From: Lishizhenia tianjinensis
GTDB taxonomy: Bacteria; Bacteroidota; Bacteroidia; Flavobacteriales_D; Crocinitomicaceae
Length of the DNA: 64,000 nt
Assembly (NCBI RefSeq): GCF_900116425.1
Contig: NZ_FPAS01000006.1
Span: forward strand, 62,001 to 126,000
Direction of reading: 5' to 3'
The notes beneath the pieces were generated by a model that saw only the letters and a list, made by a program, of their open reading frames with translations, did not search any database and was not told the origin of the DNA. A program made the translations under genes and the position numbers. This document shows positions 6,275 to 56,452 of this stretch, piece after piece. How positions within the stretch are numbered: the stretch's first letter is position 1; the number at the start of each line of letters is the position of its first letter.

Positions 6275-6347
6275 CACGGGCGGTAGGATTCGAACCCACG
6301 ACCAATGGTTTTGGAGACCAGTACTCTACCAGCTGAGCTACACCCGT
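6275..6347 (-). tRNA. tRNA-Trp (anticodon CCA)
   Basis: 73-nt cloverleaf on the minus strand. Acceptor stem ACGGGTG/CGCCCGT with discriminator G; D-arm GCTCAGCTGGTAGAGT; anticodon loop CTCCAAA (CCA); T-loop GGGTTCGAATCC. CCA is not encoded. It lies between the tuf terminator and secE, a common bacterial position. Confidence 0.97.
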
Positions 6348-6352
6348 GTGTT

Positions 6353-6383
6353 AAAAAGAGGGAGAGGTTATCTCCCTCTTTTT
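6353..6383 (-). terminator. strong intrinsic terminator after tuf
   Basis: Perfect 13-bp stem, arms 6353-6365 and 6371-6383 (AAAAAGAGGGAGA), 5-nt loop, five T at the end on either strand. It lies 20 bp past the tuf stop and only 5 bp before the 5' end of tRNA-Trp, leaving no visible room for a separate promoter. Confidence 0.85.
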
Positions 6384-6403
6384 ATATCTTTAATAAGCTA
6401 TGC

Positions 6404-7588
6404 TTATAAAATTTCAGTAACCTGTCCAGCACCTACTGTTCTACCACCCTCACGGATTGCAAAACGAAGTCCTTTATCCATCGCTACAGGTACGATCAAG
6501 TTAACGTTGATTGTTACGTTATCACCTGGCATTACCATTTCACGACCTTCTTCTAATAAGATCTCTCCAGTTACGTCAGTTGTTCTGAAGTAGAACTGAG
6601 GACGGTATCTGTTGTGGAAAGGAGTGTGACGACCACCTTCTTCTTTCTTCAATACGTAGATCTCAGCTTTGAACTTATCGTGTGGAGTAGTTGAACCTGG
6701 CTTACAGATAACCATACCTCTCTTGATATCTTTCTTATCGATACCTCTTAATAAAAGACCTACGTTATCTCCAGCTTCACCTCTATCTAAGATTTTACGG
6801 AACATCTCAACCCCAGTAACAGTTGACTTCAATTTCTCGTCACCCATACCTAAGATATCAACTTCTTCTCCAGAGTTAATAACTCCAGTCTCGATACGTC
6901 CTGTTGCTACAGTACCACGTCCAGTAATAGAGAATACGTCCTCAACTGGCATCAAGAATGGCTTATCAACATCACGTGGAGGAAGTTCGATGTAAGTATC
7001 AACTGCTTCCATCAATTCGTTTACAGTGTTAACCCACTTCTCTTCACCGTTCAATGCACCTAATGCAGATCCAGCGATGATTGGCGTGTTATCTCCGTCG
7101 TAATCGTAGAAAGAAAGCAATTCTCTAACTTCCATTTCAACTAATTCTAACAACTCTTCGTCGTCAACCATATCAACTTTGTTCAAGAATACAACGATTC
7201 TTGGAACACCTACCTGACGTCCTAAAAGGATGTACTCACGTGTTTGTGGCATTGGTCCATCAGTAGCAGCAACTACCAAGATAGCACCGTCCATCTGAGC
7301 AGCTCCAGTAACCATGTTCTTTACGTAATCGGCGTGACCTGGACAGTCAACGTGTGCGTAGTGACGGTTTAAAGTTTCATACTCAATGTGAGATGTGTTA
7401 ATAGTAATACCACGCTCTTTTTCTTCTGGCGCGTTATCAATTGTATCGAAGCTACGGTTCTGAGCAAGACCTTGTGCAGCTAATACACTTGAAATTGCAG
7501 CAGTTAATGTAGTTTTACCGTGGTCAACGTGACCAATTGTTCCAATGTTTACGTGCGGTTTTGAACGCTCGAATGTTTCCTTAGCCAT
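6404..7588 (-). CDS. tuf: elongation factor Tu
   Basis: GTPase delivering aminoacyl-tRNA to the ribosome. 394 residues, normal length, ATG start. G1 [11 protein letters not shown] (about residues 20-30), effector region with [10 protein letters not shown]3 [13 protein letters not shown]4 NKVDMVDD, then the two beta-barrel domains ending [18 protein letters not shown]. It follows the four-tRNA cluster Thr-Tyr-Gly-Thr, the same order as the E. coli tufB operon. In the stretch [10 protein letters not shown] the His common in other EF-Tu proteins is Tyr. A strong terminator follows. Confidence 0.99.
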
Positions 7589-7697
7589 TGTTTTATTTGT
7601 TACTTGTTAATAAAATCTTTAAAATCTCAATTTTAAAATATGCGAAATTTCACCCAATGAATGGATGAATTCCTAATCTCTTTTTCTTTTGTTTTAG

Positions 7698-7769
7698 AGC
7701 CAATGACGAGATTTGAACTCGTGACCTCTTCCTTACCAAGAAAGCGCTCTACCCCTGAGCTACACCGGC
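7698..7769 (-). tRNA. tRNA-Thr (anticodon GGT)
   Basis: 72-nt cloverleaf: acceptor GCCGGTG/CATTGGC, D-arm GCTCAGGGGTAGAGC, anticodon loop TTGGTAA, T-arm GAGTTCAAATCTC, discriminator T. CCA is not encoded. Last tRNA of the cluster before tuf. Confidence 0.97.
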
Positions 7770-7798
7770 ACAAAGCTTTTTAAAAGAAAATGAAAAAG

Positions 7799-7871
7799 AG
7801 CGGGAGACGAGACTCGAACTCGCGACCCTCAGCTTGGAAGGCTGACGCTCTACCAACTGAGCTACTCCCGC
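7799..7871 (-). tRNA. tRNA-Gly (anticodon TCC)
   Basis: 73-nt cloverleaf: acceptor GCGGGAG/CTCCCGC, anticodon loop CTTCCAA, T-arm GAGTTCGAGTCTC, discriminator T. Third gene of the Thr-Tyr-Gly-Thr cluster in the direction of transcription. Confidence 0.97.
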
Positions 7872-7891
7872 AATTTCTTGAAATATTTTGG

Positions 7892-7973
7892 TGGGGGTGG
7901 CTGGACTCGAACCAGCGATACCTTACGGTGACAGATTTACAGTCTGCTGCAATAGCCACTATGCGACACCCCC
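7892..7973 (-). tRNA. tRNA-Tyr (anticodon GTA)
   Basis: 82-nt class II tRNA with a long variable arm. Acceptor GGGGGTG/CACCCCC, anticodon within ACTGTAAAT, T-arm GGTTCGAGTCC, discriminator A. Confidence 0.97.
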
Positions 7974-7988
7974 TTTATCATAAAATAG

Positions 7989-8062
7989 AGCCGATGGAGG
8001 GACTCGAACCCCCGACCTGCTGATTACAAATCAGCTGCTCTAGCCAGCTGAGCTACATCGGC
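7989..8062 (-). tRNA. tRNA-Thr (anticodon TGT)
   Basis: 74-nt cloverleaf: acceptor GCCGATG/CATCGGC, anticodon loop TTTGTAA, T-arm GGGTTCGAGTCCC, discriminator T. First gene of the cluster, about 66 bp downstream of the cluster promoter. Confidence 0.97.
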
Positions 8063-12412: not shown

Positions 12413-14464
12413 TTATTTAAACTTTTTTATCGCTCCAGATTTAATGCGCTCGAAGTAATCCTTCAAATCGGCACTAACTTCTCCAGACATCAATATCAAC
12501 CCTAAAATATTTGGGAAAGCCATCCCTAAAATCATAAGGTCTGAGAAATCAATTACGGCTCCTAGTCCTACAGATGATCCAATCACCACGAAAACTAAGA
12601 AGATAAATTTATACACTAATCCAGCTGATTTTGTCTCTCCAAACAAATAAGTCCACGCTTTCAAACCATAGTAAGACCAAGAAATCATTGTTGAGAAGGC
12701 AAACAATACTACGGCAAATGTTAATACGTATAACGACCAATCACCTAAAGAAGATGAGAAGGCGGCTGAAGTTAATGCGGCTCCCTCTAATCCTTCTGGA
12801 TCTGCAGAATAACCCGTAAAAATAATTACTAAAGCAGTCATTGTACACACTACAACAGTATCAATAAACGGTTCTAATAAAGCCACTATTCCTTCTGAAA
12901 TTGGTTCGTCTGTAATTGCCGCAGAGTGAGCGATAGCTGAAGATCCAACACCGGCCTCATTCGAGAAAGCTGCTCTTTGGAAACCTAAGATTAATACTCC
13001 AATAAATCCACCGTAAATGGCGTCTGGACTAAATGCTCCATTAAAAATAGTTCTGAAACCAAATCCTAAATTATCGTAGTTAAAACCAATAATTACCAAC
13101 GCACTTATAACGTAAATCCCGACCATAGTAGGAACGATTTTATCTGTTACTTTGGCAATACTCTTGATACCTCCAACGATAACAACACCCACCAAGATGG
13201 CCATTACTATACCGAAGTAAAACCCGTAAGAAGAGAAACCTTCTAATCCTGGCAACTGAGACAATTGGTTAAATGCTTGGTTGGCTTGGAACATATTTCC
13301 ACCTCCTAAAGAACCTCCTACACAAAGAATGGCAAATAAAAGCGCCAGTACTTTACCGAGTTGCGCAAAGAAAGGTCCTTTCTTTGCCAAACCTTTTGAC
13401 AAATAGTACATTGGTCCACCGAAAACTTCACCATCTTCTTTTTGATGTCTGTATTTCACACCTAAAGTACATTCCACAAACTTTGAGGCCATCCCTAATA
13501 GTCCGGCTAATATCATCCAGAAAGTAGCACCTGGTCCACCCATAGAAATTGCAATTGCAACCCCAGCAATATTACCCAATCCTACCGTTGCAGAAAGCGC
13601 TGTAACCAATGCCTGGAAGTGAGAAACCTCACCGTGGTGTCCATCTGGATCATCGTACTTACCTTGTACTAATTCTATTGCGTGTTTTGGTCCTCTAAAA
13701 TTGATGAACTTCATACGAACTGTAAAGAATACAGCTCCCAGAACTAACCAAAGTACTATTAAAGGAAATCCTTGTGTCTTGGTTGTTAAATTCTTGTGGT
13801 AAAAAGGCTGTCTATTTGGATAGTCAATTATTGCCAGTACTTTATCAGAACGGTTTCCTCTTTTATTTACAAAGTGCACCTGTTCTCCTGCCTTCGCTTT
13901 AATCTCTAGAACTCCTGTTCCTACAGCAAAGAGAGGAAATTCCTTCTCCCCATCCTTTAAAATCGCTATTGCTTGCTGGTGTTTAACCTTTGCTCCGTCT
14001 TCTACCAACCACTCCTTAACGAAATAGTCCTTTTTTGTTTCATCAAGCGCAAAAGGTGCTTTCAATACATTGTTTGGAACCTTAACGGTGTCTGCAAATA
14101 CTTCATAAAAAAGTATACTTTGCATGAAGGCCACTGCCGGTTTCATTGCATTGTTAAAATGCTCTGGAATACTTTCGGCGTCAACTATACCCTTTTTAGT
14201 GATAGAGTTATTGGCAGCATCTATAACAGTAACAGCAATGGTATCTCCTTCTGATAAACCTGTTGCTTTACTTGTATAAATATTAACCCCTTTTTGCGAC
14301 CAAATGTAACGATAAGGCTCAACTCCACCTTTTACTGTAACCTCTGCAGTTACATCGTCAATTTTATCTTCAAAATCTTGAACTTTTAAATCTACTTGTA
14401 ATGTCTCTTGTGAAAATGTTAGAAATGTCGTTGTTAAAAATAAAAGCGTAAGTAATTTTTTCAT
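12413..14464 (-). CDS. sodium:amino-acid symporter (AGCS family) with fused extracytoplasmic domains
   Basis: 683 residues from ATG 14464. Order: signal peptide ([19 protein letters not shown]), a SprB-type repeat (about 35-85; [13 protein letters not shown] then [14 protein letters not shown]), a lipoyl/biotinyl-like barrel (about 135-210; [18 protein letters not shown]) without the usual modified Lys context, then a complete AGCS transporter (about 225-680) with [18 protein letters not shown] and [21 protein letters not shown] proteins carry alanine or glycine with Na+ and are normally about 450 residues. The N-terminal extension is expected on the periplasmic side; it may bind or sense substrate (inference). 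An exact -7 element lies 21 bp upstream. A TTG further upstream is part of that element, not the start. Confidence 0.9.
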
Positions 14465-27731: not shown

Positions 27732-28700
27732 ATGAAAAAGGTTGGACTTCTCTACGGTGGTTACTCATCAGAATTTGAAATTTCTAAGAACAGTGCGCAA
27801 ACAATTTATAACAACAGCGCCAACAACTACCAACTTTATTTAATAGAAGTTAAAAAAGAAGCTTGGACAGTGGTCTTGGAGGATGAACGCATTCCTTTCG
27901 ACTTTCAAAACTTCCAATTCCAACGCAACGGTGAAAACATTCAACTGGATGCAGCTCACATTTATATACATGGTAATCCTGGCGAGAATGGTAAAATCCA
28001 AGCCTTGCTAGACATGAAGGGTATTCCTTACGTAAACTCAAATGCTCTGGCTAGTGAACTTTCTTTCGACAAATGGTTTTGCAACCAATTCTTAAAAGGC
28101 TTGGGAGCTAATGTTGCCAAGAGTAAGGTACTGCAAAAAAACACGACTTATTCAACCGAAGAAGTTATCGAAGAACTCGGACTCCCCCTCTTTGTTAAAC
28201 CTTGTGACAGTGGTTCTAGCTATGGTATTTCTAAGGTGAAAAATGCAGCAGATTTAACACCTGCCATAGAAGCAGCCTTTAATGAAGGTCAAACCGTAGT
28301 TATAGAAAGTTTCTTAGACGGTAGAGAATTCACCTGTGGTGTTTACCAAGACAAAGATGGCGTTCATGCATTGCCGGTTACTGAAATAATTTCTGACACT
28401 GACTTTTTCGATTTCACCGCCAAATACGAAGGGAAATCGAAAGAAATTACACCCGCAAATTTAGATCAAAAAGCTACAGAGGCCATACAAAAAGAAGCGG
28501 TTAAAGCTTACCAATTCTTACAGTTATCATCTGTGGCACGTATAGATTTCATGTTGGTAAAAGATACACCTTACATCATAGAAGTAAATACAACGCCAGG
28601 ATTTAGCAAGGCATCTATTGTTCCACAAATGTTGGCCGCACAGGGTACAAAGATTTCAGATTTCTGGACCAACATTTACAATTACATTTTAGAAGACTAG
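27732..28700 (+). CDS. ddl: D-alanine--D-alanine ligase
   Basis: Makes the D-Ala-D-Ala dipeptide for peptidoglycan. 322 residues from ATG 27732: MKKVGLLYGGYSSEFEIS (N-terminal substrate loop), ATP-grasp region with KPCDSGSSYGISKV, ESFLDGREFTCGVY, and the metal-binding VARIDFML...IIEVNTTPGFSKAS. All Ddl landmarks are present. Its stop codon TAG lies inside the end of a dispersed intergenic repeat (28695-28841). Confidence 0.95.
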   Translation: MKKVGLLYGGYSSEFEISKNSAQTIYNNSANNYQLYLIEVKKEAWTVVLEDERIPFDFQNFQFQRNGENIQLDAAHIYIHGNPGENGKIQALLDMKGIPYVNSNALASELSFDKWFCNQFLKGLGANVAKSKVLQKNTTYSTEEVIEELGLPLFVKPCDSGSSYGISKVKNAADLTPAIEAAFNEGQTVVIESFLDGREFTCGVYQDKDGVHALPVTEIISDTDFFDFTAKYEGKSKEITPANLDQKATEAIQKEAVKAYQFLQLSSVARIDFMLVKDTPYIIEVNTTPGFSKASIVPQMLAAQGTKISDFWTNIYNYILED

Positions 28701-28841
28701 GCTCCCTTTTCGCGCTATCCCTTATAGTCCCCAAAAGATAGTTTAAGTCGCACAACAAGCTACCATCACTTCCGCTGGTCGTAAGGGTAGCTCGTGGCTT
28801 ACTAAAACTCTATCTTGGGGAGCTGCCAGTACTATCGCGGG
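28695..28841 (-). repeat. dispersed intergenic repeat, copy 1
   Basis: 147 bp between the convergent genes ddl and dacB. Read on the minus strand it begins CCCGCGATAGTACTGGCA and ends GGATAGCGCGAAAAGG then GAGCCTAGTC. Copy 2 (56308-56452, plus strand) has the same ends with few changes and almost the same length. Most of this copy folds as one long imperfect inverted repeat (28711-28839), with inner arms GAGCTACC/GGTAGCTT. The end nearest ddl supplies the ddl stop codon. It may also act as a terminator for both genes. Confidence 0.75.
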
Positions 28842-28846
28842 TAGAT

Positions 28847-56262: not shown

Positions 56263-56300
56263 AAAAATCCCGATGCATTACAGATGTATCGGGATTTTTT
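56263..56300 (+). terminator. intrinsic terminator after dnaJ
   Basis: Long stem AAAATCCCGATGCAT against ATGTATCGGGATTTT (one G-U pair), 5-nt loop, T6 on the plus strand; 17 bp past the dnaJ stop. Confidence 0.88.
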
Positions 56301-56307
56301 GTTTCTG

Positions 56308-56452
56308 CCCCCGATAGCAATGGCACCCCGAAGGTTAAAAAGTTAGAAATATGGGAAAAGGGCAAGCGACTTTAGAAGCTTGGTATTTGACCTAATATTA
56401 CTTGCTTTTAAAACGAGGAGTAGAATGGATAGCGGGAAAAGGCAGCCTAATC
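56308..56452 (+). repeat. dispersed intergenic repeat, copy 2
   Basis: 145 bp between dnaJ (with its terminator) and the convergent O-antigen ligase-like gene. It begins CCCCCGATAGCAATGGCA and ends GGATAGCGGGAAAAGG then CAGCCTAATC, matching copy 1 (28695-28841, minus) at both ends; over the last 26 bp only three bases differ. The middle is different in sequence but again can fold (GCAAG/CTTGC). GATAGC occurs at both ends in direct orientation. The rest of the 222-bp gap holds only the dnaJ terminator. Confidence 0.75.

Follow-up and report, generated by a model that had tools for sequence, protein, structure and literature searches.

The repeat found twice in the window (the whole stretch of 64,000 nucleotides that was analysed) is, judging from its sequence, the long form of the orphan candidate RNA Flavo-1 (RF01705), with a homologous base. 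Each element is one bulged rod hairpin of ~140–175 bases, roughly 145 being typical here, and its shape is kept by matched mutations. We propose, with a probability of about 0.45, that the conserved strand works in folded, single-stranded form, more likely as RNA than as single-stranded DNA (ssDNA).

Copy 1 occupies positions 28700–28844 on the minus strand (145 bp) and copy 2 positions 56305–56447 on the plus strand (143 bp), both measured from the 5′ arm of the outermost stem, P1, through the terminal CC. A covariance model, R1, from which both copies had been left out, matched exactly these two in the window, at 28709–28844 (110.1 bits, E = 8.7e-23) and 56305–56438 (90.8 bits, E = 1.8e-18), these E-values being rough; the P1 3′ arm and CC of copy 1 were added from the P1 analysis. 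In copy 1, all on the minus strand, the P1 5′ arm CTACC (28840–28844) forms four of five Watson–Crick pairs with the 3′ arm GGGAG (28702–28706), which is followed by the terminal CC (28700–28701). Its left box GATAGTACTGGCA, containing the internal loops (28824–28836), was placed by folding and alignment of the copies, its tip ACGACCAGCGGAAGT (28768–28782) by alignment with the tips of other copies, and its right box GGACTATAAGGGATAGC (28714–28730) by a box search of the window. Copy 2, on the plus strand, begins with CTGCC, which forms a perfect 5-bp P1 with GGCAG (56441–56447, terminal CC included). Its left box GATAGCAATGGCA (56313–56325) was located from the sequence and box extraction, its tip GCGACTTTAGAAGC (56366–56379) from the sequence and tip alignment, and its right box GGAGTAGAATGGATAGC (56417–56433) by the same box search.

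Sequence comparison and the box search recovered the shared ends of the two segments where the earlier note had placed them, and the near-identical spacing that it described persists after refinement of the ends (145 vs 143 bp). With up to three mismatches allowed, the right-end box occurs three times in the window against 0.14 expected; the third place, at 13488, was not found by the covariance model and was rejected as a copy. The inverted-repeat fold described in the earlier note holds for copy 1, which folds far better than shuffles (z = −3.54), but copy 2 alone does not (z = −0.27), and its structure is accepted because of covariation across copies, not because of its own folding energy. 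BLAST with copy 1 located four more places in the same genome at 73–85% identity. Elsewhere in the window, five tRNA genes lie on the minus strand at 6275–8062.

The covariance-model search suggested by the earlier note, run with the model that omits the window copies, identified at least 56 places in the whole genome (all 56 that were scored of 581 candidates). By their match coordinates these are dispersed and not arranged in arrays such as the cassette arrays of integron attC sites. The right-end pattern has 70 matches genome-wide, compared with 10 for a reversed control, so that neither a lack of further copies nor chance sharing of ends, the two outcomes named as fatal to the idea, was observed. 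The fetched stretches contained 46 distinct sequences with both boxes, identical copies being counted once: 40 long copies, five minis (span of 48–58 bp) and one false match of the box extraction, L072. Of the 56 R1 places, 17 lay beyond this extraction set; all 17 were fetched, are full-length and fall outside the model-building set. R1 was built from A3, a MAFFT alignment of 33 of the 40 long copies that leaves out the two window copies, L007, L016, L033, L030 and L047 (which has a long insert). Three copies near contig ends, L013, L016 and L030, are closely similar and carry the right box GGAGTAGA(A/G)CGG, with identities to L013 of 120/123 (L016) and 113/123 (L030); L013 follows a 5S gene, L030 lies ~1 kb before a 16S gene and L016 is at a contig end, as if the three had been homogenised around rRNA operons. 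L032 and L033, also closely similar and in the same orientation 2.5 kb apart on contig C8, likely represent a local duplication.

Read 5′ to 3′ on the conserved strand, the element consists of P1 (~5 bp of variable sequence), P2 (3–4 bp), an A/G mismatch, 2 bp, a GNA/GGA loop, 2 bp, a GGC/AUA loop, 2 bp, a long variable rod, the tip (CGAC-N(4–6)-GAAG) and the return arm. Its internal loops (A/G 1×1, GNA/GGA 3×3 and GGC/AUA 3×3) are conserved and purine-rich, and almost every copy has the mismatches at the same places; an internal loop may be UAA/GAN-like, and GNA loops might be stable in DNA. An optional side hairpin precedes the P1 3′ arm, and the element ends with CC and an A-rich stretch, C being present at the two terminal positions in 33/35 and 30/35 copies. 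Because the first extraction admitted only spans of 40–62 and 110–132 bp, length constancy was rechecked by an open search to 400 bp upstream of the right box. Among 39 copies with a left box of at most one mismatch, the left-to-right span was 120–127 bp in 33, 48–58 bp in five and 114 bp in one, with no other values; for 24 right boxes, a left box of this quality was missing from the 400 bp.

The pairing of this architecture was evaluated in ungapped anchored blocks from 36 of the 40 long copies, the rows dropped being L007 (no clear tip), L016 and L033 (near-duplicates) and L030 (containing N). Canonical pairing was seen in 317/324 cells for the outer pairs, where permutation gave a mean of 246 and a maximum of 263, and in 258/324 for the tip pairs (permuted mean 150, maximum 189); P1 was perfect in 27/36 copies, with the side hairpin allowed, against a permuted maximum of 11. 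Within A3, 43 of the 47 pairs showed two-sided changes, and the covariation score was 0.600 compared with 0.203 for shuffled alignments; slid versions reached at most 0.264 and none of 500 shuffles attained the score, which leans towards A3 since the structure was derived from that alignment itself. When applied to the first alignment, RNAalifold found the outer pairs but only a portion of the inner stem, so the ungapped blocks and a structure set from the alignment were used. In the variable stems, the count on which we rely, G·T exceeded A·C in the 40 copies of this genome (41 vs 11, p = 3.6e-5), favouring folding of the conserved strand. The same count in 33 dereplicated elements of other genomes gave 20 vs 15 (p = 0.50), or 10 vs 4 with stricter flanks. 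Looser criteria gave 39 vs 12 in this genome and 43 vs 42 in the others, and inclusion of the conserved loops gave 55 vs 35 and 25 vs 40, respectively.

Flavo-1 was reported as a candidate RNA (Weinberg et al, 2010; PMC2864571), and the accessible portions of the literature on it give no function. Its model, RF01705, matched copy 2 at 56303–56443 with 31.2 bits, below the gathering score of 42; copy 1 was not among the matches listed. It found two weak places in the whole genome (35.5 and 19.9 bits, among 150 of 696 candidates) and gave three weak matches (35.5, 34.6 and 29.8 bits), none above cut-off, in 16 other element loci; sub-cut-off matches of this model also occur in 5/14 control genomes. 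L160, the one accepted Flavo-1 instance examined, scored 50.1 bits with Flavo-1 and 47 bits with R1, which argues for homology with accepted Flavo-1 members. The base architecture of Flavo-1 (A/G 1×1 and two 3×3 loops) is present in the element according to alignment, folds and covariation; the two share the order stem, A/G 1×1, 2 bp, 3×3 GNA/GGA, 2 bp, 3×3, stem, and both occur in Bacteroidota. The Flavo-1 model is 76 positions long, ends in a short apical hairpin and lacks P1. In the long form these are joined by P1, a rod of fixed length (a total of 47 modelled pairs), the CGAC/GAAG tip, the optional side hairpin and the terminal CC. Flavo-1 is thus the short relative of the long form. No Rfam family recognised the long form above cut-off in the loci scanned, sub-cut-off miRNA-like matches falling on the GC-rich inner hairpin, and no published description of a long-form repeat in Bacteroidota was evident among the articles retrieved by a literature search, judged mostly by their titles.

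The distribution of the element is patchy across Bacteroidota. The right-end pattern, searched for in named genome contigs, returned 42 loci, of which R1 confirmed 33, all from Bacteroidota; R1 was negative for the other Bacteroidota locus, L128, and for eight loci from other phyla that share the pattern. By R1 match length, Flavobacterium selenitireducens (L109) and several Bacteroidales MAGs are among the carriers of long forms, and Pedobacter, Chryseolinea and Flavitalea among those of minis. The relatives in other Flavobacteriia mentioned by the earlier note are supported by these R1 matches, Flavobacterium among them. R1 was positive in 17 of 58 family or order relatives, all of genera other than the host's, and found nothing in 41 (stricter filters, best 56 candidates per genome); under the same limit, G010 had 14 places, G022 eight, G045 six and the others one to four, vs at least 56 in the host genome. 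A Flavo-1-like right-end pattern is present in 98/295 genomes of the class and is strong in few. In G303, a genome of the same class, loci L201–L218 contain many further long hairpins whose outer frames differ from those of the model; the inner hairpin is GC-rich and the end CC(C)AAA-like in most of them. Only 2/18 of these loci are matched by R1, so that the superfamily is wider than the model. An unrelated ~140-bp repeat, present at L189:1987–2126, occurs in G303 at more than 20 places with 81–93% identity. In viral contigs the long-form box had no exact match; a Flavo-1-like right box had one, L227, on a 52-kb IMG/VR contig.

We carried out the comparison of the ddl–dacB junction that had been suggested for copy 1. 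Six of the 29 relative ddl/dacB loci examined keep the convergent pair, and none of the six has an element between the genes; their stop codons range from 43 bp apart to 23 bp overlapping, vs 146 bp apart here. Because the junction is empty in six relatives, copy 1 was probably gained: gain, judged against other genera, is most likely as the simplest reading, with loss in all six a possibility. The claim that the element supplies the ddl stop codon fails, as only the last base (G, 28700) of the TAG at 28698–28700 is the complement of the element's last C. In several relatives ddl extends a few residues beyond ddl here, where the TAG lies at the element junction, and insertion may have trimmed the end of the gene.

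Stability was evaluated at 13 sites in two genomes of another genus of the same class (g69), G327 and G303. These sites remained from 17 pattern matches in G327 after exclusion of L181, L185 and L191, which lack the left half by eye, and of the ambiguous L177; eleven were matched directly, and L188 and L189 were checked separately. A full-length element is kept at 12/13 sites and the same element at 10/13, L189 keeping only its base in G303. At two sites (L173/L172 and L187/L178) the outer frame is kept and the inner hairpin is wholly different. The new inner hairpin of L172 agrees with that of L213 in 67/70 aligned bases, but the outer frame of L213 differs, which indicates that inner modules are exchanged and hence that copying between repeats occurs. 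In the nine non-exchanged orthologous pairs among the first 11, 1342/1393 element positions are identical (96.3%), and in 9/9 the element is more conserved than the 100 bp on its 5′ side, the 100 bp on its 3′ side and the more distant flanks. Of 27 base pairs changed in orthologous pairs, 16 are broken, 10 consistent and one doubly compensated, which argues against a purely structural constraint. The upstream 100 bp are 45–60% identical in 5/11 orthologous pairs. A short repeat containing AACGGTCTCA lies just upstream of several G327/G303 elements, including in the 5′ flanks of L174, L176 and L179, and disrupts the flank alignment in these genomes.

Gene neighbourhoods were tabulated for 62 copies (45, including the five minis, plus the 17 additional places) by crude ORF calling, in which three copies overlap a predicted ORF. 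Neighbouring genes were convergent in 22 cases, tandem with the element in sense in 17, tandem antisense in 14, divergent in seven and ambiguous in two. The position between convergent genes emphasised by the earlier note is therefore frequent without being general. In the 21 copies whose upstream neighbour points away, at least ~70 bp separate the element from that gene; there are others that come to within ~10 bp of a stop codon or even overlap it. The structure is equally good whichever direction the upstream gene points, antisense included (36 copies), which, together with the indifference to orientation, means that upstream transcription is not needed. The Bacteroidota −7 motif shows no clear excess upstream (10/36 vs 6–7/36 in three controls). 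That the transcription context makes no difference and that no promoter is conserved both count against a conventional ncRNA gene or 3′ UTR element. On the conserved strand, the hairpin is followed by CC and the A-rich stretch and not by the T-run of an intrinsic terminator. By eye, an ordinary-looking hairpin with a T-run does lie 3′ of dnaJ and 5′ of copy 2 (56266–56301, plus strand), outside the element.

The element may be selected as a self-contained folded strand recognised by shape, its fixed-length rod and constant loops offering a recognition surface for a protein, as a decoy or RNP scaffold. Such a surface would let stem sequences drift or be exchanged while constraining length and loops. 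Recognition of this kind is indicated by the constancy of length and loops, the drift of the stems and the exchange of inner parts. Action as RNA, or at least as a single strand, is favoured by the covariation, the out-of-sample R1 matches (both window copies and 17 in the rest of the genome), the G·T excess in the host's own copies, the constrained box spans, the conservation of element over flanks in all nine pairs and the match to L160. RNA sits less well with the indifference to gene orientation, the absence of a clear −7 excess, the poorly conserved upstream 100 bp, the position of copy 2 behind a likely terminator, the non-significant G·T bias and inverse loop-inclusive count in other genomes, and the broken pairs in orthologues. 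It also sits less well with Flavo-1 matches in F. psychrophilum, which in the accessible part of that study are sense or antisense, many outside transcribed regions (PMC9723704). These partly untranscribed matches (PMC9723704), like the irrelevance of gene orientation, a structure that is as good in one context as in another and the failure to see a conserved promoter, would suit a transcription-independent chromosomal site, at which one strand would be extruded as a hairpin in the course of replication, repair or supercoiling, to be recognised by a protein. We consider this action at the DNA level rather unlikely, given the excess of G·T over A·C in the host's copies, the absence by eye of the polarity along contigs in copy coordinates that a replication-strand signal should have, and the lack of a known binding protein. 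Sheared G·A loops are stable in DNA too, however, and ssDNA hairpins tolerate G·T better than A·C, which tells against a reading specific to RNA. A bidirectional terminator or mRNA 3′-end stabiliser between convergent genes, like REP/BIME, would explain the 22/62 convergent copies, some of them within ~10 bp of a stop codon, but is highly improbable: the T-run is lacking, 14 copies are tandem antisense and seven divergent, and copy 2 stands behind an ordinary-looking dnaJ terminator, so that the terminator unit considered in the earlier note is not upheld. Still less credible is a functionless, neutral quasi-palindrome in which template switching or gene conversion maintains the complementarity of the arms. 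It would accommodate the exchange of inner modules, but arm correction would erase the fixed mismatched loops, template switching restores Watson–Crick pairs with no G·T bias expected, and the orthologous pairs suggest that the element evolves more slowly than synonymous sites.

A non-autonomous, MITE- or REP-like element moved by a trans-acting transposase or reverse transcriptase could also retain its structure, since only intact copies would move. The junction empty in six relatives, the multiplication here set against 41/58 relatives with none found (best 56 candidates per genome), the occurrence in either orientation and the distance from the starts of divergent genes all speak for mobility. 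Against it, the genome, which is 99.99% complete, has no match at E ≤ 0.01 to either family covered by the enzyme search, the Y1 transposase (PF01797, Y1_Tnp; 6/14 control genomes positive) or reverse transcriptase (PF00078, RVT_1; 3/14 positive). Nor is there a significant target-site duplication, the longest word shared between flanks averaging 3.51 vs 3.25 in permutations (35 copies; sd 0.18, maximum 3.71 in 200 permutations). In g69, moreover, 12/13 sites are full-length, the 13th retains the base, and the element is more conserved than its flanks. Since a copy was probably gained, yet no Y1 or reverse transcriptase, target duplication or recent movement was seen, we regard mobility as unlikely, and the classical miniature transposon suggested by the earlier note finds no support in the same enzyme and duplication results or in the stability of most sites within another genus. 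The description in that note of a family of repeats whose ends are fixed and whose folding middle varies, with a conserved RNA-like unit, is in contrast supported by the copy number and covariation. Known repeat classes match only in part. In the accessible part of one study (PMC3733652), REPs tagged with GTAG or CGTC are 20–40 bp long, their G-T pairs are taken as a hint of RNA, and CGTC repeats are reported from Bacteroidetes without a dedicated transposase, GTAG not being listed there for Bacteroidetes. The window copies are not 20–40 bp palindromes with a terminal GTAG; they are 143 and 145 bp long and end in P1 and CC. Like REP/BIME systems with RAYT, the elements are multicopy extragenic palindromes, but REPs are shorter and this genome has no Y1_Tnp match. 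ERIC/MITE-type repeats are ~130–150 bp long, intergenic and form a long imperfect hairpin. Our element is similar in size, intergenic location and hairpin form, but its stems diverge widely yet covary, and neither a significant target duplication nor a Y1/RT partner was found.

Beyond the preferred reading of a folded single strand, it is conceivable, if doubtful, that these repeats form a phylum-wide class of modular single-strand-folding elements, neither transposon nor classical ncRNA gene, which multiplies in some lineages without a recognisable Y1 transposase or reverse transcriptase and trades inner hairpins while outer frame and length stay fixed. If that were true, the inherited thing would be the architecture and not the sequence. 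Flavo-1 has been an orphan since 2010, and its Rfam model spans only the base of a larger object, so that dozens of structured elements can be overlooked when a genome like this one is annotated with the current model. With the strict architecture of the long form, the census of its copies, its orthologous sites and the exchange of its inner modules, RNA versus DNA function and mobile versus resident status each become testable in ordinary strains.
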